NCBI GenBank assembly: GCA_027488815.1
Contig: JAIYAX010000012.1
Coordinates: 62,001 to 126,000, forward strand
Source of the DNA: Cytophagaceae bacterium
GTDB lineage: Bacteria > Bacteroidota > Bacteroidia > Cytophagales > JAIYAX01
Reading direction: 5' to 3'
Length of the DNA: 64,000 bases
The notes beneath the pieces are model-generated. The model was given only the letters and a program-made list of their open reading frames with translations. It was not told the origin of the DNA and ran no database searches. This document shows positions 7,720 through 25,527 of this stretch, one piece after another. Made by a program: the position numbers and the translations under genes. Every line of letters starts with the position of its first letter. The stretch's first letter is position 1.

Positions 7720-8421
7720 GGCTTTTTCAATAGCAAAGAATCAACAGCTCCTCTTAACTGAGCAAGAGTTCTGCTACTCATAAATGCCTTTCGAATAGGC
7801 TTTTGGTCTCAATCTCCGCTCCGAGAGGAAGTATCGCAGGACATTGAAAGGTATTTCTGGATTTAGATTTCGAATATCTGCAGCGGTAAACTATACCCTC
7901 GTGGTTTAATCAAAAATAAAAAACACCTGTTTTTACTCTCGTTCTTCCAAGGACGAACTGATCGTGTACTCTTGCAAGTTTAACCCATTTAAAGACAGAG
8001 AAGATAAGTTAACAGCAATCGATAGGGTTAGAATATGTAAGCTCCGTATCAGGAAAACTCAGGGAAGAAAAACCACAAATTGCTTTACTGAGATATTGAG
8101 ACAGAAATTCAAAACCCAAAAGAAAACCCTAAAGCATCTTGAGATACTGTGGGGTTTTGCGTTAATAAAATACGTATTCTCTTTACAAAGCAGGTCTGCT
8201 GATCATGATCTCTCTTCAGTCGATCACTTGATTCTCAGTACCACTTAAGGTAATGTTAGTGTTACCTGAATTCGCAAATGAATTGAACCTTACTGGTGAA
8301 GACCTTAACGTTGTTAGCACCAACAGATCCAGATACAGCGGCTGACGTAAGAACGGTATTTGATATCGCTACAAAGGAATTTTTGGGCGGTATCCTTACA
8401 ACGAGGGCGACTGGGAGCTGT
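7720..8421. other. Intergenic, no intact gene; decayed sequence
   Basis: Seven hundred bases with only low-quality open frames. A plus-strand frame of 94 codons at 7964-8248 has no coding signature and contains an imperfect hairpin (about 8133-8168, AAAACCC paired with GGGTTTT around an inner AGCATCT/AGATACT stem). At about 8250-8420 a plus-strand frame looks partly protein-like (EFANELNLTGEDLNVV, later RYPYNEGDWELFTYS) but is broken by two TGA codons; it could be a degraded gene end. I cannot name a parent for it. Confidence 0.5.
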
Positions 8422-8577
8422 TCACTTACTCCTTCTAAATTCCTCCGACCTCTTTCTAAAATACTCAATCTCTTGTTCTGGAGTCATTCCTTTGATCGTC
8501 TTTGAAATTCGATCTCGCTCTTGTCGCATGTATTTTACTGCGTCAAATTTTTTGTTGGCATTAATTTCAGTTTTCAT
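8422..8577 (-). CDS. Small 51-aa protein, antitoxin-like
   Basis: A short ATG-started frame. The product begins MKTEINANKKFDAVKYMRQE and ends with a charged helix (EIEYFRKRSEEFRRSK). It is almost all polar and charged with predicted helices, and the pattern 'FDAVKYMRQERD-IS' followed by an E/K-rich helix resembles the small helical antitoxin partners of PIN-type toxins in Bacteroidota; this is recall of a pattern, not a proven homology. No toxin is recognisable next to it: sequence upstream and downstream is decayed. It may be a surviving half of a toxin-antitoxin pair. Confidence 0.55.
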   Translation of the reverse strand: MKTEINANKKFDAVKYMRQERDRISKTIKGMTPEQEIEYFRKRSEEFRRSK

Positions 8578-8738
8578 ATTTCCATCAATTCTTTTGGTGA
8601 TCTAATTTCAAGAGTGTGAAGTCCTTCTCGCTGGTTAACAGAATGATAACCTCTAATCCTTTTAAGGTTAACGATGTGTTCGCATGTTTTACTAAAGCAC
8701 TTCTTCCTCCAAAAAGCCAGAACCAACGTTTGAACCGT
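8578..8738 (-). pseudogene. Possible degraded coding remnant upstream of the 51-aa gene
   Basis: On the minus strand a short frame ending ...LEVIILLTSEKDFTLLKLDH just before the 51-aa gene looks protein-like but has no start and no family I can assign. It might be the 3' end of a gene whose 5' part was replaced by the TfoX-N gene. Low confidence. Confidence 0.25.
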
Positions 8739-9065
8739 TTATTTTTTCCTCTTTTTAGGTTTCGTTTCGGGCAAATTGTCCACTGTTATTCGTACCAGAT
8801 TGCTGAGCCATTGGCTGTCTTCCAGCTTGTCGTCAATCAAAAAACTGGGTTTTGCCCCATCATAGGGTGGTAATTCGGTTGGGTTTCCGATAAACTCCCG
8901 GCCTTTGGTTGTGGGTTTGATAAACAAATGGTTGTCGCAGATGAGCCCAAAAAGAATGCTGTCACAGTAAAGACCATATTCACCAAACATTTTTTTGGCA
9001 GAAATGGGCCCAACGTTTTGAATTTGCTCCAGCACGAAGTCAACATAGGTTTGCTTAGAGGCCAT
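8739..9065 (-). CDS. TfoX N-terminal domain family protein
   Basis: 108 aa, a stand-alone TfoX_N domain. Visible: KKMFGEYGLYCDSILFGLICDNHLFIK, the family core, and a strongly basic C-terminus (ETKPKKRKK). TfoX/Sxy is a competence regulator in gamma-proteobacteria, but single-domain TfoX_N proteins are widespread and their role is not settled. Start ATG at 9063-9065. Located at the edge of the AT-rich accessory region. No competence genes are nearby. Confidence 0.88.
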   Translation of the reverse strand: MASKQTYVDFVLEQIQNVGPISAKKMFGEYGLYCDSILFGLICDNHLFIKPTTKGREFIGNPTELPPYDGAKPSFLIDDKLEDSQWLSNLVRITVDNLPETKPKKRKK

Positions 9066-9187
9066 ATTGTTTAGTCGATATTGTCTTTTCCTGAAATCAC
9101 TTTACACAAATCTAAACTTTACGAAGTTCAGATGTATCAAAAAGGCTGCTGCGAAAAGGCCATATTGAAGAAGACAGATTTGGCTTA

Positions 9188-9276
9188 GATTAGAATGGTA
9201 TTTGGGGTTGCTGAATGGGAATTTCTTGGATAGCTTCGGTGCAAGCGGCGAGGATAAGAGTTGGAGGGTGTGCTTG
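9188..9276. repeat. Dispersed repeat, copy A
   Basis: About 88 bases, similar over the whole length to 9619-9708 in the same orientation; the best shared blocks are gaatttcttgg, ggtgcaagcggcgaggat and agggtgtgcttg. Identity by eye is about three quarters. On the minus strand it lies downstream of the DUF1016 fragment. Both copies can be read open in two frames, but flanking frames differ, so it is more likely a noncoding repeat unit. Confidence 0.75.
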
Positions 9277-9301
9277 TCAGGTGAGGACATCTGCCGAAGT
9301 G

Positions 9302-9460
9302 TTAGGTTCGTTTTTGTTCAGAATCACGCCTTGAAAGCAAACGATAATGCGTCCAACTCAATTCGGTACGCAATGCGTTCCAAATCGGTAAGGCCTGATA
9401 AAAAGCCCTCACGTTGTTAAGGTTGCGCTCATCAAAACCTTTTCCGAAGTTAGATTTGAC
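9302..9460 (-). pseudogene. Fragment of a DUF1016 (YhcG-like) nuclease-family protein
   Basis: A 52-codon frame without a start codon. It contains FGKGFDERNLNNVRAFYQAL followed by PIWNALRTELSWTHYRLLS, which fits the N-terminal domain of DUF1016/YhcG proteins (typical pattern GKGFS--NL--MR-FY ... LSWSHY--LL). These proteins have a C-terminal PD-(D/E)xK nuclease domain and are common in defence islands, often next to restriction-modification genes. Here everything after the LSWTHY motif and before GKGF is lost, with a TAG just upstream. Clear remnant, not functional. Confidence 0.75.
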
Positions 9461-9618
9461 CTAAAACCTACGTATATACATGAAATTCAGCAGGCTAAAA
9501 GCTAATTTCGGCGCTGTAGAAATGCCTTAAAAAAACGCATCTTTATACTTTTGATTGGCCTAAAAAACGGGGGAGTTTACAAAGGGACAAGGGCAGGCGC
9601 TGGAAAGGAGGGATTGCT
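9461..9618. other. Short gap between DUF1016 fragment and repeat copy B
   Basis: No gene or promoter that I can support. It contains tggcctaaaaaacggggg and a small inverted pair around gctaatttcggcgc. Probably decayed sequence. Confidence 0.4.
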
Positions 9619-9708
9619 TTGGTTGGAACGGTGTTTGGCTTGTTGCAGGGGAATTTCTTGGGCGGCATTGGTGCAAGCGGCGAGGATGAGAGTGAGAGGG
9701 TGTGCTTG
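9619..9708. repeat. Dispersed repeat, copy B
   Basis: Second copy of the repeat at 9188-9276, same orientation, about 430 bp away. On the minus strand it begins immediately after the stop codon of the 119-aa gene at 9711, the same relative position (just after a coding end) as copy A. That suggests a unit which travels with, or is inserted at, gene 3' ends. Confidence 0.75.
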
Positions 9709-9710
9709 GA

Positions 9711-10070
9711 TTACAAAAACTTACTAACCACGTCTGTGACATAAATATCAGCCAGCTTACAAGCTTGCGTTACCTGCTGCCAAGAAAAATAGTAAATGTT
9801 TGTAGGACCATTTTTTTGCTCAAAGTATAGATATTTTTTAGCAATTGCTCTATATTTTGGCCTAATCAATACAGCTGGGTGATGCCCCTTTCCTTGCAAA
9901 CGATATAGTAGTGCATCAATACCATCCTTTTCCTTTATTTGCTTGCAGGCATTTTCAAATTTCTCAACATCTTTCATATTCTGAAGGCAAATATCAATAT
10001 AAAAAAATAAGACATCAATTTTATTGAGTTTTTCAAATTCACCTTTTCTATCTAACCTAAATGCGCTCAA
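9711..10070 (-). CDS. Uncharacterised 119-aa protein, possibly 5'-truncated
   Basis: The frame opens with TTG at 10068-10070; an open, protein-like stretch (IIRKSIRNARHYLRKLSAFR) continues upstream to a TGA without any ATG, so the start is uncertain or the gene lost its 5' end. The product is mixed alpha/beta with a YRAIAKKYLYFEQKNGPTNIYYFSWQQV core and no membrane helix or signal peptide. I do not recognise the family. AT-rich like the restriction genes upstream. It ends directly at repeat copy B. Confidence 0.5.
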   Translation of the reverse strand: MSAFRLDRKGEFEKLNKIDVLFFYIDICLQNMKDVEKFENACKQIKEKDGIDALLYRLQGKGHHPAVLIRPKYRAIAKKYLYFEQKNGPTNIYYFSWQQVTQACKLADIYVTDVVSKFL

Positions 10071-10369
10071 CTTTCGGAGATAATGCCTAGCATTTCTAAT
10101 GGATTTTCTGATAATTGTATGTTTTCAAAATGGTCATTTGCCAGATAAAGATGTTAAGGATCTGCATTATAAAAGCTGGGAAATGATCTACAGAAGATAA
10201 ACCAAGCAACAGAAATAGATTCAAACTGCTATTTCAGATTTAATGCTGCCCGGCAAAGTCTATGTTCAAGAAGGTAGAGGTAGCTTACTATGGTGGTGTT
10301 TGGTGTCGTACCATCCGACTTTCTCGGTCGTCCCCATTGCAAACGAGGGCGAACGAGTAATTCATTTTA
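10071..10369. other. Noncoding tail downstream of the restriction-modification gene
   Basis: On the minus strand the first 100 bases after the R-M stop are GC-richer than the gene and form consecutive small hairpins (CCGA gaaag TCGG; TGGT acgac ACCA). A phrase cgttcgccctcgtttgcaat is of a kind I associate with Bacteroidota intergenic repeats, but I cannot confirm copies. The rest shows no gene; a plus-strand end-of-gene-like frame (DVKDLHYKSWEMIYRR) at about 10150-10199 has no start. Confidence 0.45.
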
Positions 10370-13300
10370 TCAAATAAGTTTGTATTTATCCAATTGATTA
10401 ATGAGTTCTACAGAGTTTAGTGAAACGGTAATGACTTTGCTTATAAGTTTTAATATTTCATCGTTGTCGGTTTCATAGTCTTTGTACTGGTCAACAATCC
10501 ATTCAAGTGGCGAACGGCCATTTACCTTGTATTCAAACACCTGGGGTGGTACAAAAAACTCTAAATACTTGTTATAAGTTAATACAGTCCCGCTAATTTT
10601 CATGTGGGTTATGTTGTAATTGACTTTAGCCCTTTTGGCATTCAGCAGTTTAAGCGTTTCTTTGGACGGCTTTATTTTGTATTCATCGGCTTGCTGGTAA
10701 TTAATATGTATTTCTGCAAGCTGGCGGCCTATTTCAGATATTTCGGCAAAATGTTGTTTTAAAAAAGGCACACGGGGGCTGCTCGTTTTTAAGAATTGGT
10801 CGTAACGGGAGCGGAATGTTTTATGATGGTTGATGCCATAAACATAATAGAAAACTTGTTGGGGAGTGATTTCAGAAATGCCGGTTTCGGTTTTGAAATA
10901 CTTTAAAGCCCAAGCGGTAATGTTGCTCTCTGTACAGGTTTCTTTCTGTTTGTTTAAATAAACGTTTATTAGCGGGAATACCTGTGTTTTTTCAATAGTA
11001 TCAAAATTTGGCAGGTCATTGGTAATTAATGTTGAAACTTTTTTGCTTCCTAACCCATTTAAAAGAAGAAATGAATTATTTGTTTGTTTAAGAAGATGAA
11101 ATAAGGATGGTCGGTCAACAAAAGTTTTATCAAAATAAAGAGTTCTTTTTAGGAATGGCCTAAATAATGAACTTTCACATTTATTTTCATCATATTTCGC
11201 CTTCTTTAATGACTTTAACTTGTTCTTTAACCCATCACTCCATTTCAATTTTTCATCATCAATTCTTACAAAATTGTCTATAATATTATTGCTAAATTTT
11301 ACAATTTTATTTTCTAAAATATATTTTTCCAAGCGTTCAACTTCTTCATTAAAAAAGTCAATAGTTAATGTCATTTTGGGTTCTATATCATATTTTGTAT
11401 AACCATAAACCCATTCATTTCTTGCAGTGTTAATTCCGGGATATTTAGCTTTAAAAATGAATTCGTCATTGTCTAAATTTTCAGAATATAGTTCAATAAA
11501 TTTATCGTATTCTTTAGAAATTTCAACGGACGCTTTGTCGAAAACGAAATTGTTGGATTCGTTAATAACACCTTCTGACCAATCTAATTCGGACAGTTCG
11601 GTATTTTCTTTTGTATATTCGTCAATAACATCTTCTTTGTCCCATCGAGTTATGTATTCATCGAGGTTGTGATAAAATATTTTGTGTTCGGTATATTCGC
11701 TGTTCCTGATTAGGAAAGTTATACCAACCCCAACTTTAATACCAAATACATTATGTTTGGAGCCGCTTAACTTTGGATTGAGATAAACATCGCCGCCAAG
11801 GTCGAAATGATAAACATGGTGAAATTCGTTAAGTAGGTGTTCCCTCATGCCATCGAATTGAATATCGGACATGAAAGAATTGTTGGAAATAAAGCAAATA
11901 ATCCCGTTGTGTTTGTCGAGGCGGTCTGATGCCCAACGAAAGAATTTTACATAAGGGTCGTAAAGCTTGTTTTTTAATTGTGCATTGGAGCTAAAAGCGT
12001 AGGTTTCGGCTATACGTTTGTCAACAATGGGGTTTTTCGTGTTCTTATTGTTTTGGTTTTCGTTTTCCTGAGAGGCATTATATGGCGGATTGCCAATAAT
12101 TACGAAAAGATCTTTGCTAAGTTCGTGTTTTGCTCTTGCGCTATTGACCTCGTTAAAAAAGAAATCGAGTTGTTGCTGCGCTTGATTACGTGCCGGATCT
12201 TCAATAAGTTCTAGGGTATCGGTAAAAACAATATTTTCAAAAGGCTCGTAAGTGCCAATTGTATCAAAATAATATTGTTCAATGTTAGCCGATGCAATAT
12301 AGTAAGGCAAAAGCATTATTTCGTTGCAAAAGAGTTCATTTTTATATTTATGGTGAAGCAGGGCAGGGTCGATATTTCGAAGGATTTCCATTACGAAATT
12401 GCCAGTGCCCGTGCACGGGTCAATAATATTCACGCCCTGTGATGAAAGGGACTTGCCAAATTCATTTTGCAATAATGAGTTTGTAAATTTGACCATAAAC
12501 CGCACAATTGATTGCGGTGTATAAACAATTCCGTTTTTGTCTGCGTTTTTAACAGAATATGATTGAAAAAAGGCTTCGTATATCTTGTTCAGGAAAGCTT
12601 GTTTTTCGCTTAAATCATCGAATTTGGCTGCTTCCTCTTCAATTGCTATATAATATGGGTCGATTGCTTTGAAGAATTTGGCTTTATTGAATGACTTTTT
12701 GGTAAGCACATCAACCAATTTTTCGAGTTGCGCTGCTATTACGTTCTTTTGTATAAATTCGGGATTATCGAATACTTTACGGAATATCCTTTCTGTTAGG
12801 AGATGCTGAATAAGCATGTCCTCAATTTCTTCTATTTTAATGTCATTATGAAATGAGCTTTTACAAACTTCAAGAAAATTATTCAGGGCTATGGTAAACT
12901 CTTCACTTTTCTGCTTTGCTTCTAAAATAATTGTCTTGAAATCTGCGGCTAAATGGCTAATATTTTCTTTGAACTTTTGAACTGCTATGCGGAACTGTTC
13001 ATATATTGGTTCATTATAATTGAAGAAAATAAGAAGCAGTTCTATTAATTCATTTTCATTTTTAAGGTTATACCTGCCATGCTCTGAGTTGTCCTGATAC
13101 AAAACAGCATACTCGGTATCTTCAAATATTGTGTTTGAGCGGGGGTATCCCTTTTTGAGTTTTTTATAGATTTCTTCATCGAGGTCATCTGAAGTATCTT
13201 TAGCCTCCCAATATCCAATAACACGAAAGTAATCGTCCTTAATTATGCCGTCAGGTATTATTTTTCCTTTCTTTGCCACACTCTCACTTGTTTTAACAAG

Positions 13301-13453
13301 TGTGAGGTCTAAATCTAGAGCTATATTATGGAGCAAGTCTTTGAATGCTTGTTCAGTTGTGCTTTCGTTATACGCCTGCTGATACTTGAATTTTTCAAGC
13401 GCTTTATAATAACGATGCGTATATTTCTTGACTAAATCTCTGGCTAATTTCAT
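10370..13453 (-). CDS. Fused restriction-modification protein (type IIG/ISP-like, no helicase)
   Basis: 1027 aa in one chain. N-terminal nuclease-like segment: Pro67-Asp68 ... Glu83-Ala-Lys85 in a GYWEAKD context, the PD-(D/E)xK arrangement of type IIG and ISP enzymes. Helical linker to about residue 300. Adenine methyltransferase: SAM-binding DPCTGTGNFVME at about 345-356 and catalytic NPPY at about 455-458. The C-terminal ~400 residues should be the target recognition part. It would methylate an adenine in its site and cut DNA lacking the mark. There is no SF2 helicase between nuclease and methylase, which sets it apart from LlaGI-type ISP proteins. AT-rich compared with core genes. A TACATTTG box at 13471-13478 may drive it. 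Confidence 0.85.
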   Translation of the reverse strand: MKLARDLVKKYTHRYYKALEKFKYQQAYNESTTEQAFKDLLHNIALDLDLTLVKTSESVAKKGKIIPDGIIKDDYFRVIGYWEAKDTSDDLDEEIYKKLKKGYPRSNTIFEDTEYAVLYQDNSEHGRYNLKNENELIELLLIFFNYNEPIYEQFRIAVQKFKENISHLAADFKTIILEAKQKSEEFTIALNNFLEVCKSSFHNDIKIEEIEDMLIQHLLTERIFRKVFDNPEFIQKNVIAAQLEKLVDVLTKKSFNKAKFFKAIDPYYIAIEEEAAKFDDLSEKQAFLNKIYEAFFQSYSVKNADKNGIVYTPQSIVRFMVKFTNSLLQNEFGKSLSSQGVNIIDPCTGTGNFVMEILRNIDPALLHHKYKNELFCNEIMLLPYYIASANIEQYYFDTIGTYEPFENIVFTDTLELIEDPARNQAQQQLDFFFNEVNSARAKHELSKDLFVIIGNPPYNASQENENQNNKNTKNPIVDKRIAETYAFSSNAQLKNKLYDPYVKFFRWASDRLDKHNGIICFISNNSFMSDIQFDGMREHLLNEFHHVYHFDLGGDVYLNPKLSGSKHNVFGIKVGVGITFLIRNSEYTEHKIFYHNLDEYITRWDKEDVIDEYTKENTELSELDWSEGVINESNNFVFDKASVEISKEYDKFIELYSENLDNDEFIFKAKYPGINTARNEWVYGYTKYDIEPKMTLTIDFFNEEVERLEKYILENKIVKFSNNIIDNFVRIDDEKLKWSDGLKNKLKSLKKAKYDENKCESSLFRPFLKRTLYFDKTFVDRPSLFHLLKQTNNSFLLLNGLGSKKVSTLITNDLPNFDTIEKTQVFPLINVYLNKQKETCTESNITAWALKYFKTETGISEITPQQVFYYVYGINHHKTFRSRYDQFLKTSSPRVPFLKQHFAEISEIGRQLAEIHINYQQADEYKIKPSKETLKLLNAKRAKVNYNITHMKISGTVLTYNKYLEFFVPPQVFEYKVNGRSPLEWIVDQYKDYETDNDEILKLISKVITVSLNSVELINQLDKYKLI

Positions 13454-13796
13454 TAACTCAATATTTTGTCCAAATGTACCGAAATTATCAAAATAGCATT
13501 GGCGTGGAGGAGAAAAAACAAATGTATGGACGGAGGGAAGGCAGTGGGACGATAGGCCATACTCTCTTTTTTTAGGTGTGTGGGTTGTTCATATTATTTC
13601 TTTGATTTCACTAAACTGTAAATTGTCCTAGAAGCTCATTTTTAAGCTAACAGGTAAAGTTTTTGGGCTTGGATAAGGTGGCGAATTTCATCACAAATGT
13701 TGATGTGTAGAACCAAACTTTGTTTAACCACAAATATGTCTGCGCAGCACTTAACCGCTACTTTTGCGAAACCCATGTTGTATGCCTTTTTTCTCT
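13454..13796. other. Intergenic between the R-M and GmrSD-like genes, hairpin-rich tail
   Basis: 343 bases without a gene. On the minus strand it starts right after the GmrSD-like stop with ggcatacaacatgggtttcg and continues about 170 bases with gcggttaagtgctgcgcaga, a kind of GC-richer tail I associate with accessory genes in this phylum. The part near the R-M gene holds its promoter candidate. No integron attC core sites could be matched. Confidence 0.45.
13471..13478 (-). promoter_or_regulatory. Possible -7 box for the restriction-modification gene
   Basis: TACATTTG on the minus strand, 17 bp before the ATG at 13451-13453. A good -33 partner at the usual 19-21 bp is not evident. Confidence 0.4.
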
Positions 13797-15701
13797 TTAT
13801 GCCGTCCATATTTTTCGGATTTGCTCATACAGATACTGACTTCTCTTTTGAATTTGTTCTTCGTCCCAAATTGGTTTGTCTTGAAAGTAAGTATTCAATA
13901 GAACTGTCGATTGAAGTCCTATTACTTGCTTTTTAATATCGAATGAAGAGTTACTAACACTTGGATTTAACGAACTTGTCAAAATTGTCAAATTGCCTAT
14001 TGTATGCAGCATTTTGTTTCTGTTTTCAATTTTGTGATACTTACCGTCTTTATCAGTTTCGGTCATTACAGCGTGAACCGAAATTTTAAAATCGTCCTCT
14101 GAGATTGTTTCGCCATCTAATGGCCAAAATTCAAACCAAGTTTGTGGTAATAAATGCTCTATTGTCAAGCCTGAATTTAGGAATATAACTTGCTCTTGTC
14201 TGTTCCCACGGATAGATTGCTCAATCTCTAAAAGAATATTTGAAATGCTCCTTGTTTTGTTTTTTTCCTCTCTATATAATGGTCGTTCAAGAAGTTTTTC
14301 CAAAAGAATATTGTCTGTGGGCCAAAGATTTGTTTCTGATGTTTTTGCATTCAATAGTTCTTTGAAAGAATCGGCATCTTTATTCTTGGTCAAATATTTC
14401 AGATATTCCAAAAATACATTATTATAATTCTTGGTGGTTAAACCACACAAAAATCTCCTTGTAATGTATGAATCCAAACAAGAATAAATTTTGATTTTAT
14501 TGTCAGAGGTAATTTCAGAATCGCCCTCAATGTATAGAATAAGAGGATAGAGAGTTGAAATACTCATATCTATAAGCCTCGATGCTAAACGGTCGAAAGG
14601 TGTATTTCCTTCTGGTTTAGCAAGTCTTTTGAAAATCTTGCTATATTTATTAAGTTCTTCTAATTCTTGTTCAACATTTTGAAAGTTTGATTGATTAATT
14701 ACAAATAGTTTGTAGAAATAAAACACTTGATCATATCTAATTTCTGTTTGTAGTTTTAATGTTAAGTAGTCAATAACGAAAAACTGCAAGTTGCTTTCAA
14801 AATATCTTCCTCGGCTTGTCTTCTCATGCCATTTGAATTTTGATTCAGGGTCGTCAAACTCGTCCCAATACTTTTCATATATCTTGTCAAGATTTTCTTG
14901 ATTACTATTTGCCCTCATAAAAATATAATTTCTAATGAGGTCTGTTTCTGTTAGGGAGGCTCCACGACCATTCATTGTCTCAAAAATCATTTGAGGGTCG
15001 TCATTTTGTGTCAAGCCGATTTCAACGAATTGAAAATCCCTTTTCAATACCCATAGAAATTGAGTTATTAGTTCTGTTAAATCGCCATCATTTTCTAAAA
15101 TTAAATTATCCAATTGGTCATAGAAAAATAAATATGCCCCTAAAAGTTTATTTCTGTTTTTAGCAACTTGTCTATATGTTTTGTGTCCAATTCCATACTC
15201 GGATAATACAGGTTGAACAAGTAGTTCGTCCACTTTTTTATAAGTGTTGGAAATAATAGTATTAAATATTTCCTTATTGAATTTAGTTGGCTCTAGCTTA
15301 AACTTTTGTAATTCATATTCTTTGTCTCCAAATGATTTTTCATTAAAGAGGAATTTGTCTAATTCCTTTATGAGGTTTTCATCATTGAGGTGTTTTCTAC
15401 AAACTTCTCGAAAGGCTGCGATAAAAATTTGAAATGTTGTTAGGCGTTGCTGACCATCAATAACGCTGTATGAGGAAAGGGTGCTTGTTGTTGTGTTTTC
15501 GTGAAAAAGAACAATTGACCCTGTGTAATGAGGATGAATTTTCTTTTTACTTTGTCGTTCGTTGTATTTGTTTAAAAAGTCCTCCCATAAAGGCATTAGC
15601 TGGTCTTGTTCATTCCAAACATAATGTCTTTGAAAAACTGGTATTCTAAACCTAATTTGCTTATTGAAAAGTTCTTCTAAAATGGGTTTTGATAAGTTCA
15701 T
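13797..15701 (-). CDS. GmrSD-like DUF262/DUF1524 protein (type IV restriction-like)
   Basis: 634 aa. N-terminal DUF262 (GmrS-like): RIPVFQRHYVWNEQDQL at 19-35 and the signature VIDGQQRLTTF with DGQQR at 82-86, involved in nucleotide hydrolysis/sensing. C-terminal DUF1524 (GmrD-like HNH nuclease): LTIEHLLPQTW near 512-522 (catalytic His about 515) and HTIGNLTIL near 565. Fused DUF262-DUF1524 proteins cut modified phage DNA, for example glucosylated hydroxymethylcytosine (GmrSD) or act with phosphorothioate marks (SspE). The substrate here cannot be told. It lies just upstream of the R-M gene on the same strand but 343 bp away, so probably an independent unit. Strongly AT-rich. Confidence 0.88.
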   Translation of the reverse strand: MNLSKPILEELFNKQIRFRIPVFQRHYVWNEQDQLMPLWEDFLNKYNERQSKKKIHPHYTGSIVLFHENTTTSTLSSYSVIDGQQRLTTFQIFIAAFREVCRKHLNDENLIKELDKFLFNEKSFGDKEYELQKFKLEPTKFNKEIFNTIISNTYKKVDELLVQPVLSEYGIGHKTYRQVAKNRNKLLGAYLFFYDQLDNLILENDGDLTELITQFLWVLKRDFQFVEIGLTQNDDPQMIFETMNGRGASLTETDLIRNYIFMRANSNQENLDKIYEKYWDEFDDPESKFKWHEKTSRGRYFESNLQFFVIDYLTLKLQTEIRYDQVFYFYKLFVINQSNFQNVEQELEELNKYSKIFKRLAKPEGNTPFDRLASRLIDMSISTLYPLILYIEGDSEITSDNKIKIYSCLDSYITRRFLCGLTTKNYNNVFLEYLKYLTKNKDADSFKELLNAKTSETNLWPTDNILLEKLLERPLYREEKNKTRSISNILLEIEQSIRGNRQEQVIFLNSGLTIEHLLPQTWFEFWPLDGETISEDDFKISVHAVMTETDKDGKYHKIENRNKMLHTIGNLTILTSSLNPSVSNSSFDIKKQVIGLQSTVLLNTYFQDKPIWDEEQIQKRSQYLYEQIRKIWTA

Positions 15702-15722
15702 ATTTTATCTTTTTGTTGAATG

Positions 15723-16013
15723 TTAATTGTTTGCACGTTCTAGAATGGCATATGACTCGTTTACATGTATCACTCCATGCTGCCTAGCCATCCATATCAG
15801 CTGTACAGGCCTCATGAATGCCTCTTTTCCAGGCTCCTTATTTTGATCCATCAACCCTTCAAAAGGCCTTCCTCTTGTTAAGTTAATGTATGCGTGTACA
15901 GTTGGCAAATCGTCCATTTTAAGGGCTAATATAGAAGATTTGTCTTTTTTCCTAAGCTGATCGGAAAAATATTTTATTTGACTCCTTCGGGTTCTGGCGC
16001 AAATCCGGGCCAT
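15723..16013 (-). CDS. Uncharacterised small protein
   Basis: From ATG 16011-16013 the product is 96 aa, beginning MARICARTRRSQIKYFSDQL; a later ATG (MDDLPTVHAYINL) would give about 65 aa. The second half (RGRPFEGLMDQNKEPGKEAF, then RPVQLIWMARQHGVIHVNES) looks protein-like and helical but I cannot assign it to a family. It is 21 bp upstream of the GmrSD-like gene on the same strand, so it could be the first gene of that transcript and a defence accessory. Could also be a truncated gene. Confidence 0.45.
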   Translation of the reverse strand: MARICARTRRSQIKYFSDQLRKKDKSSILALKMDDLPTVHAYINLTRGRPFEGLMDQNKEPGKEAFMRPVQLIWMARQHGVIHVNESYAILERANN

Positions 16014-16042
16014 CAGCACACCCACCCAAGTCCTTTTCTTGC

Positions 16043-16050
16043 TAGTTTTG
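16043..16050 (+). promoter_or_regulatory. Possible -7 box for the M42 peptidase operon
   Basis: TAGTTTTG, 44 bp before the ATG at 16095. No obvious -33 element. It marks the switch from AT-rich accessory sequence to GC-richer core genes. Confidence 0.4.
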
Positions 16051-16094
16051 CAAACCGCTGCGTATTCTTTCAAAAACCCCCTTGCTCAACCCCT

Positions 16095-20170: not shown

Positions 20171-23100
20171 ATGCGTGGTAGTGTTGCTGTTCTTCTCATC
20201 GCCCTTGTTTTTTTAACACCTGCCCGGGTTCTTGCGCAGAAGAGTAAGCTGCCATTTTTTAATCATCCGGTGAATGTCAAGCTTTCACAGCATACCATCA
20301 ATGATTTGTTTCAGGATAGCTATGGCTACCTATGGCTCGCCACACAGGATGGCCTCAACAGGTACAATGGCTACGAAGTCAGTATTTTCAGGTATCAGAT
20401 CAACGATCCGAACAGTCTCTCGGAGAATTTTACGCTCTGTCTTGCCGAGGACAGCAAACGAAACATTTGGGTAGGCACCATCAAGGGTTTGAACATCTGG
20501 AACCGATCCACTCAAAAGATACATCGGGTATTCCTGGATACCACCAACAAGGAAAACCAGCCGGTAAGCTCGATTTTGAAAGTGGACTCTTTGCAAATGG
20601 CGGTCATTTCCGGAGGGAATTTGTTTGTGCTTTCGGCTGCTGAAGCACTTAGGTCCAGGCAGTTATCCAATCCAAGGCTCCGGGGAATCGGAAGCAAAGG
20701 CTGGGTTGATTCAGGAAAATGGATCTGGCATACCCAAGACTCTGAGTTGCGGATGAGCGACATCAAAACCGGTAAAACCATACGTGCGGTGCCCTTTGCC
20801 CAACAGGTTCGGGATTTTTTCCTCACGATCGACCAAGTCTTGTGGATTGCTACAGACTCAGGTTTGTATTTTCTCGGACCGGGAATGACACGTACTCAGG
20901 CTTTCCCTGCCACGCACAGGGCTTTTTCCGGGCTCAGAACATTTGCGCTCGGCGAGAACGATTACGAACTCTGGGTAGGCGGTGAGCAAGGCATCAATAT
21001 TCTTCAAAAGAAAAACAATGGCTGGTTTCATCTCCGGTCCCTCACACATGATCCACTGGATGCAGAGAGTATCCCGGTAAGTCAGGTGTTCTCTCTGATG
21101 AAAGACCAAACGGGCATGACCTGGGTTGGAACTTCTCACGATGGCGTTTTTACCCGAAAAATGGGAGGGACCTTGTTTAGTGTTTTCCAACACAAACACA
21201 GTGATGAACCTTCTCTAAGCAGCCATATCAATTGGTCGATCAGTCAGACCAGAAGCGGTAAATACCTGATTGGTTCTGCCAATGGTCTCAATATTTGCGA
21301 TTTTAATACCAGCACAGGAGTACTTGCCGAAAACCGCTTTCTGAGCTTCAAAAACCATTTGCAAGCGCCTCTTTCGGTATTTCAGGTCTTTGAACTGCCT
21401 ACAGCAGAGCTTATGATCGGTACCAATGCAGGTTTGTTCCTCTGCAATCCTGAAAACGGAGAATACCAGTCCTACACCTACCAATCCAAACCCGTGCATC
21501 TGAAAATCATGCACCTCAGCTCCGACTCAGATGGTAGAATATGGTGCGCTACCTCTCAGGGAGCTTATCTGAGCCGTCCGGGAAGTTTGGAACTAATTAA
21601 CCCGGCACTTGAATTACCAAAATTCAATATACCTGACCTAGGCTATATGAGCAGGGTTTTTCAGGACAAACAAGGCAGGATTTGGCTGGGTAGCCTGCAA
21701 GGATTTTGGGCGATAGATCCGAAGAGCGGGGAAGTATTGCTTTCACTGAAGGACTTCCTTGATCAACCGGAAACACATCAGCGACAGGTTTCGGCCTTCG
21801 CACAGGACAGCCTGGGAAGAATTTGGTTTTCCACTTTTGGAGCAGGGATTTTTTGCATGAATGAAAAGTTTAAAACATTGACTTCCTATTCAGAAGCCAA
21901 TGGTTTATCCAATAACGTGGTTTATTCTCTGCTGGAAGACGATGAACATTTCTTCTGGCTCACCACCAACAGGGGCCTGATGAGGTTTAACCCCTACACA
22001 GCTGCCTTGGTGACCTACCATCAGGAAGACGGCTTACCGATTGAAGAATTTAACCAGAATGGTTTTTACAAAGACCGGAACGGATACCTCTTTTTCTCCA
22101 GCACTGCCGGTTTAGTGATGAAGAATCAGGAAAACAAGGGGGCCTATAATTCCCCAACCCCTATAGTCCTGACCAGCATTGATATCAACTACAAATCGAT
22201 GGACTCAAACCATCCCTCCCGCAAAGGACTGCCTTTTGAGGAGCTAAGCAAGATCGATCTCAATTATGCAGACCGTGTGGTGGCTTTTGAGTTTTCAGCA
22301 CTTGATTTCCGCAATTCCGACAGGATCAGCTATGCCTATATGTTGGAGGGATTCAACAAGAACTGGGTAAAAGTGCCTGCTGAGCGCAGGTATGTGACCT
22401 ACTCCAGTTTGCCATCAGGTACCTATGTGCTCAAGGTAAAAGCAGCTGTTGAGAAGGAGCAGTGGAACAGCAAAGTTCTGAGTCTGGTCATTCAGGTACA
22501 TCCACCTTTCTGGGCGACCTGGTGGTTTATGGGTGGAGTTGCTGTGATTCTGCTGGGTATCGGAATGGGAAGCATCTACCTTTTCTCCAGGCAACGGCTC
22601 ATCAGGAAAAATCAGGAATTGAGCGTGTTACGGCAGGTGCAGGAAGAACGGGAGCGAATCTCGAGGGATTTGCATGACCATGTAGGAGCGCAGATCACGT
22701 ATATGATTACCAAGCTGGATCATTTGCAGTTCAAGGTTCCTCAGGCGCAGGAGTTACCCCATCGACTTGAAGTGATTAGTTCCCAAGCCCGTTCTACCAT
22801 GCAATTGCTCAGAGAAACCATTTGGGCCATCAGAAAAGAACAAGTAAGCCTGCTGGAGTTCACACAAAAGCTGAAGGAATACATGAGCCAGATGTTTACC
22901 GGCATTGACCACATGACCTATGAGTTGCAGTCACAGGAGCCCTTACCGGAAAGAACCCTGAAGCCCATCAAGGCCCTCAACACATTTAGAATCATCCAGG
23001 AGGCGGTGACCAACTCAACAAAATATTCCGGAGGAACCTGGGTGAAAATACAGATTTCAGAAAATCTGGGTGAGCTGATGGTAGAGATTGCTGACAACGG

Positions 23101-23245
23101 CTGTGGTTTTTCAGAAGTAAACGATGACCCTACCGGTTTTCATAACGGTTTGGAAAACATGCGCTTCAGGGCAGAAGAGATGGGCGGAAGACTGGAGTTC
23201 TTTAACAATCAGGGTGCACATGTTCGTCTGACGGTTGAAGTGTGA
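20171..23245 (+). CDS. Two-component-propeller sensor histidine kinase (HisKA_3)
   Basis: 1024 aa. Signal peptide (1-24, ends VLAQ), then two seven-bladed 'regulator propeller' domains to about residue 685 with recurring DSxGxxW/GxxxGLNxW units, a Y_Y_Y domain (about 690-765), one transmembrane helix (about 783-805), HisKA_3 with ERERISRDLHDHVGAQ (His835) and HATPase with EAVTNSTKYS N-box near 942 and DNGCGFSEV. Large periplasmic sensor for polysaccharide or other surface signals, with NarL-type output. The expected partner is the regulator at 25869, now 2.6 kb away because another gene lies between. Confidence 0.93.
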   Translation: MRGSVAVLLIALVFLTPARVLAQKSKLPFFNHPVNVKLSQHTINDLFQDSYGYLWLATQDGLNRYNGYEVSIFRYQINDPNSLSENFTLCLAEDSKRNIWVGTIKGLNIWNRSTQKIHRVFLDTTNKENQPVSSILKVDSLQMAVISGGNLFVLSAAEALRSRQLSNPRLRGIGSKGWVDSGKWIWHTQDSELRMSDIKTGKTIRAVPFAQQVRDFFLTIDQVLWIATDSGLYFLGPGMTRTQAFPATHRAFSGLRTFALGENDYELWVGGEQGINILQKKNNGWFHLRSLTHDPLDAESIPVSQVFSLMKDQTGMTWVGTSHDGVFTRKMGGTLFSVFQHKHSDEPSLSSHINWSISQTRSGKYLIGSANGLNICDFNTSTGVLAENRFLSFKNHLQAPLSVFQVFELPTAELMIGTNAGLFLCNPENGEYQSYTYQSKPVHLKIMHLSSDSDGRIWCATSQGAYLSRPGSLELINPALELPKFNIPDLGYMSRVFQDKQGRIWLGSLQGFWAIDPKSGEVLLSLKDFLDQPETHQRQVSAFAQDSLGRIWFSTFGAGIFCMNEKFKTLTSYSEANGLSNNVVYSLLEDDEHFFWLTTNRGLMRFNPYTAALVTYHQEDGLPIEEFNQNGFYKDRNGYLFFSSTAGLVMKNQENKGAYNSPTPIVLTSIDINYKSMDSNHPSRKGLPFEELSKIDLNYADRVVAFEFSALDFRNSDRISYAYMLEGFNKNWVKVPAERRYVTYSSLPSGTYVLKVKAAVEKEQWNSKVLSLVIQVHPPFWATWWFMGGVAVILLGIGMGSIYLFSRQRLIRKNQELSVLRQVQEERERISRDLHDHVGAQITYMITKLDHLQFKVPQAQELPHRLEVISSQARSTMQLLRETIWAIRKEQVSLLEFTQKLKEYMSQMFTGIDHMTYELQSQEPLPERTLKPIKALNTFRIIQEAVTNSTKYSGGTWVKIQISENLGELMVEIADNGCGFSEVNDDPTGFHNGLENMRFRAEEMGGRLEFFNNQGAHVRLTVEV

Positions 23246-23274
23246 CATTGTTACTTCCAATCCCGTTGAGACAA

Positions 23275-25527
23275 ATGACACGACAAACGATCATAATATT
23301 GACAGCGTTGCTCTCTGCTCTTAATATGCTCGCACAAAATTTACCTGAATCAACTGTAACTGGTTTAGTGTTTGACGAATCAACTGGAATGCCTTTGCCC
23401 TATGCTAACGTGTTGGTGAAAGGCAGTAGTATTGGAACAGTTACAAATTTCAAAGGAGAATTTAGAATCAGTATACCAACCAATTTCAAAAGTGACAGCT
23501 TGAAAATATCCTACATAGGTTACAAAACCAATTCAGTTGCTATATCAGAGCTTTCAACAGATAGTAAGATATTTCTAGTGGAGAGTGTAAATACCCTGAA
23601 CGAGGTGCAGATTACAGGACAATCTGCTCTGTCTATCATGAAATCTGCTATTAAGAAAATACCTACCAATTACTATAGCCAATCCTACAAGAGTAAGGGG
23701 TTCTACAGGATAACATCAAAGAAGGATGCAAAATATATGCATCTCTCGGAAGCCGTATTTGAACTCCATAATGCTAAAAAAGCAAGCCAGTTCAAACTCG
23801 CAAAAATGCGAGCAATAAAAGATGAAAGGGAATCGCATGGTTTAGATCTCGGACTGAAACCAAACGGAATAATTGAATTCGATATCATAAACCATTCGAC
23901 TGAGTTTGATTTTCTCCGTGAGAAAGGGTTAAAAGATTACGATGTTGATTTCGAGGAAAATATTACATACATGGATCAGGAGGTATTTGTGCTTTCCTTT
24001 GATCAAAAAGATGGAGTTAAGAAAGCTGGCTACAAGGGAAAGGTTTTTATCGACACAAAAACTTATGCAATAGTATATCTTGACTATGGATTTAGCCCAA
24101 AAAGCATTAAGTATCACAAATTTGGTGATGCTGCTCAGCGTGCCTTGATGAAGATTTTAGACATACACATTGAAATGCCTAAATCCGATTATAAGATTTC
24201 ATATAAAGGGATTGGCGGAAGATACTATCTAAATACAGTTTACAATGAGGCTGTATTAATATTTCAAAGCAGCAGGTATCACTATAACTTTCTGGCCGAT
24301 ACCCGTGTTGACTATATCGTAAATGATTTAGATGTTACTAATACCTTGCCCTTTGCTAATAAAGAGACGCTCGGCAACAGTAAATTAATAGAAGAACAAG
24401 ATTCCCCATATGATAAATCTTTCTGGGACGGTTATAATATTATTCTCCCAAACGTTGATTTTACTTCTATTGCTAAAAGCATTGAGTCTAACAATACAGC
24501 TAACGATACTCAAAGAGAGATTGAAGACAAATTGCCGAAGTACCCAAAGGATAAAGCAAGTAGGGTTGACTCTATCCTATCTTTCTATAATCGAAAGGGA
24601 CTGTTCAATGGGAATGCTTTGATAGAGTACGAGGGAAAGACTATTCTTCAAAAAAGCTATAATAATAGGCTCACAGAAAATCAGTTGAAAACCCAGTTTA
24701 GGATAGGCTCCGTAGGTAAGACATTCACTTCGATGTTAATATTAATGTTAGAAAAAGACGGGCTTCTTAAACTTACAGATTCAGTGAAAGAGTATTTGCC
24801 CACTTATAGACATAGAAACATTACTATTGAGCAGTTGCTAACTCATCAATCAGGTTTGCCTGATTATCTAGCTAAGAATGAATATGTGATTCGTCTTTTT
24901 GAAAAGGAATTTTCAGTAGGAGAATTAGTTGAACAATTTTGCAGCGACTCTCTGGAATTTGATTCAGGGAGTAAATTCCAATATTCCAATTCAGGCTATG
25001 TTGTCCTAAGTCTTATTGTCGAAAAAGTGTCAGGGAAATCCTTTGGAGAGGTATTGAAAGAAAGAATATTTCAACCCTTGCAAATGAACGATACCTATTT
25101 TGGGACCTCAGTTGATACTGCGAACCTTGCTACAGGATACATGTACGGACAGCCTGAGCCAAAGTACTATCCACAGAATGTAAGTGGTGCAGGTGGAATA
25201 ACTTCAACATTGGAGGATATGATAAAATGGAGCCACAGTATTGAAGAGGAAACGCTTCTTCCAAAAGAGAAATTGGATTTACTATTTGTTCCAAGAGCTA
25301 GTTACTCGGATTGGGATGCCGACTATGGATACGGTTGGATGTTAGATAAGTATAAGTTCAAGACTTCAAAAAATAATGTTATCCGCTACCATCCAGGCAC
25401 TGATTTTGGCTTTTATTCGATGTTTTTAAAACAACATGAGAAAAAGATCACGCTAATTCTGCTCAATAATACTGGCGATTTTCCCCGATTTGAAATTTCC
25501 GACTTGATCTTAAATACACTTGACTAA
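23275..25527 (+). CDS. CarboxypepD_reg_2 protein fused to a serine beta-lactamase-type hydrolase
   Basis: 750 aa from ATG 23275. Signal peptide MTRQTIIILTALLSALNMLA; CarboxypepD_reg_2 domain at about 25-110 (GLVFDESTGMPLPYANVLVK); a central region (about 120-410) as found in outer-membrane DUF5686-like proteins (FYRITSKKDAKYMHLSE); and a C-terminal class C beta-lactamase/DD-peptidase-like domain with Ser479-x-x-Lys482 in GSVGKTF, Tyr570-Ser-Asn572, and His706-Pro-Gly708. All three catalytic motifs are present, so it should be an active serine hydrolase; substrate unknown. Visibly AT-richer than both neighbours and inserted between a kinase and its regulator, which points to acquisition. Confidence 0.82.
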   Translation: MTRQTIIILTALLSALNMLAQNLPESTVTGLVFDESTGMPLPYANVLVKGSSIGTVTNFKGEFRISIPTNFKSDSLKISYIGYKTNSVAISELSTDSKIFLVESVNTLNEVQITGQSALSIMKSAIKKIPTNYYSQSYKSKGFYRITSKKDAKYMHLSEAVFELHNAKKASQFKLAKMRAIKDERESHGLDLGLKPNGIIEFDIINHSTEFDFLREKGLKDYDVDFEENITYMDQEVFVLSFDQKDGVKKAGYKGKVFIDTKTYAIVYLDYGFSPKSIKYHKFGDAAQRALMKILDIHIEMPKSDYKISYKGIGGRYYLNTVYNEAVLIFQSSRYHYNFLADTRVDYIVNDLDVTNTLPFANKETLGNSKLIEEQDSPYDKSFWDGYNIILPNVDFTSIAKSIESNNTANDTQREIEDKLPKYPKDKASRVDSILSFYNRKGLFNGNALIEYEGKTILQKSYNNRLTENQLKTQFRIGSVGKTFTSMLILMLEKDGLLKLTDSVKEYLPTYRHRNITIEQLLTHQSGLPDYLAKNEYVIRLFEKEFSVGELVEQFCSDSLEFDSGSKFQYSNSGYVVLSLIVEKVSGKSFGEVLKERIFQPLQMNDTYFGTSVDTANLATGYMYGQPEPKYYPQNVSGAGGITSTLEDMIKWSHSIEEETLLPKEKLDLLFVPRASYSDWDADYGYGWMLDKYKFKTSKNNVIRYHPGTDFGFYSMFLKQHEKKITLILLNNTGDFPRFEISDLILNTLD

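Follow-up and report, generated by a model that had tools for sequence, protein, structure and literature searches.

A probably acquired AT-rich patch holding a predicted DrdV-like Type IIG enzyme and a predicted GmrSD-family nuclease that look to work independently

Background

Two restriction proteins of different types lie side by side in a short AT-rich part of the window, by which we mean the whole 64,000-nucleotide stretch of DNA analysed (bases 62001–126000 of contig C20 in a source genome of 3.37 Mb in 30 contigs). Do these proteins form one defence system or two, did they arrive together with their neighbours as a single island, and do the small genes beside them belong to the defence? 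A sequence-only reading had described the region as a small defence island, visibly AT-richer than its flanks, in which a fused PD-ExK/adenine methylase and a DUF262-DUF1524 GmrSD-like protein were accompanied by a DUF1016 nuclease-family fragment, a TfoX-N gene and two unrecognised small genes that could include an undescribed accessory.

Results

Table 1. Features of the AT-rich patch, with positions in the window
Feature	Position	Strand	Evidence
AT-rich patch	7840–15980	.	Maximum-likelihood change points on GC; GC profile
59-aa open frame overlapping the VapC-like remnant	8425–8601	-	Position only
VapC-like (PIN) toxin, C-terminal remnant	8577–8738	-	Weak match to VapC of a Leptospira plasmid
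TfoX N-terminal-domain protein, 108 aa	8739–9065	-	PF04993, 1.5e-14
75-nt direct repeat, copy 1	9202–9276	+	Flanks DUF1016 remnant
DUF1016_N (YhcG-type) nuclease remnant, 52 aa	9305–9460	-	PF17761, 2e-11
75-nt direct repeat, copy 2 (83% identical)	9634–9708	+	Flanks DUF1016 remnant
g9711, orphan protein, 119 aa (open frame to 10124)	9711–10070	-	Codon-position GC
DrdV-like Type IIG restriction-modification enzyme (IIG), 1027 aa	10370–13453	-	Pfam, PADLOC, PDB match, motifs
GmrSD-family (DUF262-DUF1524) nuclease (GmrSD), 634 aa	13797–15701	-	Pfam, PADLOC, motifs
g15723, probable 3' end of a truncated gene	15723–15968	-	Coding-like composition here only

A Pfam and PADLOC profile search of the region's proteins matched Type IIG and mREase_IV models and no model for the orphan frames. 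The gene referred to as IIG (Table 1) encodes nuclease, coupler, adenine methylase and target-recognition domain in a single chain, with Pfam matches to Type_ISP_C (1.4e-69), ISP_coupler (2.8e-12) and N6_Mtase (4.1e-11) and matches to two PADLOC models of Type IIG (1.9e-162 and 4.7e-151). Both its nuclease motifs (PDG67 and EAKD83, in an aligned stretch PDG...WEAKD) and its adenine methylase motifs (DPCTGTG345 and NPPY455) are intact. The ISP enzymes LlaGI and LlaBIII could be aligned to it only from residue 178 onwards, because IIG has no helicase. The best solved relative, 7lo5/7lvv (1029 aa), matched over residues 7–994 (E = 4.3e-164); 7lo5, named an adenine methyltransferase in the structure table, is presumably DrdV. 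The gene is thus predicted to encode a DrdV-like enzyme of Type IIG, with restriction and modification in one chain, which agrees with the fused PD-ExK/adenine methylase of the sequence-only reading. In DrdV, a single chain consists of an N-terminal nuclease, a central methylase and a C-terminal recognition domain, and methylation and cutting are in kinetic competition (PMC10201449). The two proteins share this domain order and are of similar length (1027 vs 1029 aa), with a match spanning nearly the whole chain, while the recognition domain of IIG has diverged.

The GmrSD-like call was confirmed by two Pfam domains, both over the cut-off (GmrSD_N, 2e-36; GmrSD_C, 3.7e-23), and by the PADLOC model mREase_IV (9e-95 over residues 8–633), with the second-best model, Orf5, equally strong (1.1e-94). 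All motifs looked for were present (FQR23, DGQQR82, FETMN240, IEH514, ENRN559 and GNLT569), the last three supplying, in the H516/N560-562/N570 region, the H...N...N feature of the family, for which QR, DGQQR, FxxxN and H...N...N/H have been listed as characteristic (PMC11411939). Fused DUF262-DUF1524 domains, DGQQR and His-Me residues are common to this protein and the Type IV enzymes GmrSD and BrxU (PMC4619093, PMC8565348), whereas its match to a solved family member, the DUF262 protein 9jfl and the sole PDB match, is only distant (1.3e-10). The product is therefore read as a fused GmrSD-family protein and a predicted nuclease. SspE, also a DUF262-DUF1524 protein, senses phosphorothioates, so that members of the family are not all modified-cytosine nucleases (PMC10952713); because of this difference and the equally strong Orf5 model, we leave the choice of substrate wide. 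A search of the source genome for phosphorothioate modification genes, with DndC only, gave no match. The BREX neighbourhood typical of BrxU was also absent, with no BREX genes detected by Pfam or PADLOC at 7.7–16 kb; the single PglZ-domain match in the whole genome lies on another contig in a protein of 521 aa, the size of which suggests PorX.

Likelihood change-point scanning placed sharp edges at both ends of the patch, with a GC content of 0.357 inside and 0.50 in the rest of the 4–20 kb interval, which bears out the AT-richness noted earlier. According to the GC profile, the effect is strongest at 10–16 kb (GC 0.31–0.38), with 8–10 kb nearer 0.40. The profile also contains another AT-rich stretch, at 23000–25500 of the window (GC 0.35–0.40).

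Such composition could belong either to acquired DNA or to native DNA of odd composition. In keeping with the latter, the patch yielded no integrase, att repeat or target-site duplication, the region contained no tRNAs or RNA families, and no empty site was seen: the AsmA-like gene and the M42 gene that flank the patch do not lie together in relatives of the same order, being distant or on separate contigs, and in complete genomes (e.g. G004, G008, G036 and G045) they are hundreds of kb to Mb apart. Plasmid matches were all below 60% identity and viral contigs held no relatives. As for att or target duplications specifically, the two edges have no common word of 9 nt or more, the chance median being 8. 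Against native origin stand the abrupt change of GC at both ends, the presence of gene remnants within, and the affinities of GmrSD, which is nearer to proteins of other classes and phyla (78% identity in Ignavibacteriales) than core genes are to those of order relatives (best identity at most 74% for M42 and 48% for AsmA). On balance, native origin seems very unlikely to us, and the patch was probably acquired; horizontal movement is indicated by close GmrSD relatives (64–85% identity) spanning Bacteroidota, Ignavibacteriales and Verrucomicrobiota, together with the composition. Since third-position GC of the TfoX gene is core-like (0.50), the patch is probably composite. Hence the earlier description of a small defence island holds for the two restriction proteins, which are intact and differ in type, for the AT-rich and probably acquired DNA and for the remnants of other defence or toxin-antitoxin genes, but the island is probably not a single uniform acquisition.

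Insertion and decay look to have happened repeatedly in the left part of the patch. Both the TfoX-N gene and the DUF1016 fragment were recovered there, the latter covering only positions 57–109 of the 137 of its Pfam model and lying between two direct repeats that are nearly unique, with only four partial matches in the whole genome. The VapC-like remnant, with no start-to-stop gene of usual VapC length, weakly matched a plasmid-borne protein of Leptospira that is annotated as VapC (48.6% identity across 37 aa, E = 1e-3). By its position, the overlapping 59-aa frame is perhaps the remnant of the corresponding antitoxin; it had no match in Pfam, PHROGs or plasmids.

Two further small genes had been noted as unrecognised. 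Codon-position GC of g9711 (0.44/0.26/0.29) resembles that of its neighbours IIG (0.43/0.25/0.34) and GmrSD (0.40/0.27/0.29), and for this reason it is probably a real, co-acquired coding gene. The other open frame, 15723–16073 on the minus strand, ends 21 nt before GmrSD, and its upstream portion (15969–16073), which crosses the composition boundary or falls outside it and enters the M42 flank, does not look coding; for that reason g15723 is probably the end of a gene that the insertion boundary truncated. Both frames thus exist as described, except that the upstream extension of the second does not look like coding sequence. Neither gave a family match above cut-off in Pfam, PADLOC, NCBIfam or PHROGs or a credible relative in 395 genomes of the phylum, plasmids, phages and viral contigs, and neither was seen beside the inspected relatives of GmrSD or IIG. 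Predicted structures (mean pLDDT of 42.5 for g9711 and 39.1 for g15723) were too low in confidence for use. A weak phmmer match had suggested that g9711 is a fragment of the recognition domain of IIG, an idea that was rejected: the IIG profile gave 2.2 bits, and at least 12 of 2000 shuffles scored higher. Its weak genome matches (E between 6e-4 and 3e-3) were likewise set aside, being frames of at most 80 aa with stops or lying inside an unrelated 593-aa protein. The suggestion of an undescribed accessory was not borne out by these searches; that g9711, a full-length ancestor of g15723 or both would be an accessory or anti-restriction-escape protein that works together with GmrSD or IIG solely in this lineage strikes us as exceedingly improbable, and the lack of matches points to passengers or remnants.

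Scanning of genome contigs yielded 11 relatives of GmrSD at 64–85% identity. Type III systems adjoin the gene in six of these (L094, L097, L098, L099, L100 and L102), in clusters of type III Mod and Res, an HKD/SNF2 helicase and DUF4391, the Mod of L098 falling past the end of the available sequence. Type I-like genes, assigned from sequence, precede it in one relative (L101), and a PIN protein followed by a different Type IIG enzyme comes after it in another (L096). For the remaining three (L093, L095 and L103) there is no methylase gene in the available sequence, the GmrSD of L095 adjoining a lone HSDR_N nuclease.

The association of Mod/Res, GmrSD, HKD+SNF2 helicase (PADLOC C3a139) and DUF4391 recurs with varying gene order (L083/L097 in Marinoscillum, L094, L098, L099, L100 and L102) across Bacteroidota, Ignavibacteriales and Verrucomicrobiota, with ZorA2, ZorB2 and ZorE2-like genes additionally present in the Marinoscillum cluster (L097), and may be a defence system. 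Could the GmrSD of the window be a leftover of such a cluster, no longer working alone? The frequency of the type III setting among the relatives is compatible with this, more so as the tree groups the window protein with L093 (85%) and L094 (78%) with support of 96/97, so that one type III case falls within its own clade. The gene is nevertheless intact with all motifs, L093, L095, L096 and L101 stand outside such a cluster, and remnants of Mod, Res or helicase were not detected at 7.7–16 kb; we regard a leftover as unlikely.

The remaining alternative is a single coupled system made up of IIG and GmrSD, and perhaps also of g9711 or g15723, in which GmrSD acts on DNA or signals made by IIG. 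The genes are adjacent on the same strand, and 8 of the 11 GmrSD relatives adjoin some methylase-bearing restriction system, including the different Type IIG of L096; the partner varies, however, between type I, type III and other IIG, and a gap of 343 nt separates the two genes of the window, which is not a tight operon. In a survey of 390 genomes of the order (match threshold 1e-3), the matches listed included 89 genomes for GmrSD as query and 81 for IIG. Of the 26 matching both, at least one, the window's own, has the two on one contig and the other 25 were not so listed, a same-contig count that is a lower bound on adjacency, given draft assemblies and match lists of limited length. No GmrSD or g9711 neighbour was found beside the nine inspected IIG relatives (about 34–39% identity), several of them on short contigs, and standing alone is what would be expected of a self-sufficient enzyme. 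The pair was therefore not encountered again in either the order survey or the inspected relatives, and as far as these neighbourhoods show it is not a conserved unit. We consider a coupled system quite improbable; on gene-neighbourhood data, IIG and GmrSD look independently acquired and independently working.

A second defence cluster is located on the same contig (L082:5841–12092), about 14–20 kb upstream of the window start. It contains another DrdV-like Type IIG enzyme, 33.5% identical to that of the window, a PDC-S70 match and PDC-M12A/M12B genes with an AAA_21 ATPase.

Discussion

Domain content, motifs, intactness, adjacency and composition were all observed directly, and the account that we consider likely is that of a small acquired defence patch, the two working genes of which act independently on unmodified and modified DNA, the rest being passengers or remnants of earlier insertions. 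IIG would recognise a specific sequence, methylate an adenine there in host DNA and cut DNA that carries the sequence in unmodified form. GmrSD would sense modified bases through its DUF262 domain with nucleotide hydrolysis, cut DNA with its DUF1524 His-Me domain and so catch phages that escape IIG through DNA modification. Activity, target modification and complementarity are drawn here from the families to which the proteins belong, and the logic of one enzyme attacking unmodified and the other modified DNA, already put forward in the sequence-only reading, is consistent with family knowledge.

Our literature search, of limited reach, found no paper on a pair of IIG and GmrSD. Machnicka et al. 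(PMC4619093) showed that GmrSD homologues are enriched next to domains of type I and type III R-M systems, and complementary logic has been demonstrated experimentally for BREX with BrxU (PMC8565348) and for type I R-M with TgvAB in Vibrio cholerae (PMC11411939). The TgvAB cluster on VPI-2 likewise combines R-M with a GmrSD-family enzyme, so that unmodified and modified DNA are both attacked, but with a type I system and a two-protein TgvAB in place of IIG and a one-chain GmrSD. BREX with BrxU likewise places a Type IV enzyme in the same island as a modification-based defence, the partner being BREX and not a single-chain IIG. GmrSD beside R-M systems and the complementary logic are thus already published, and IIG as the partner is a minor variation. 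The window adds a further case of GmrSD-family nucleases adjoining R-M systems of varying type, here with a Type IIG enzyme of one chain as the partner. Among relatives the partner changes but the GmrSD subfamily remains much the same, which speaks for defences that are independent and additive and against a fixed complex.
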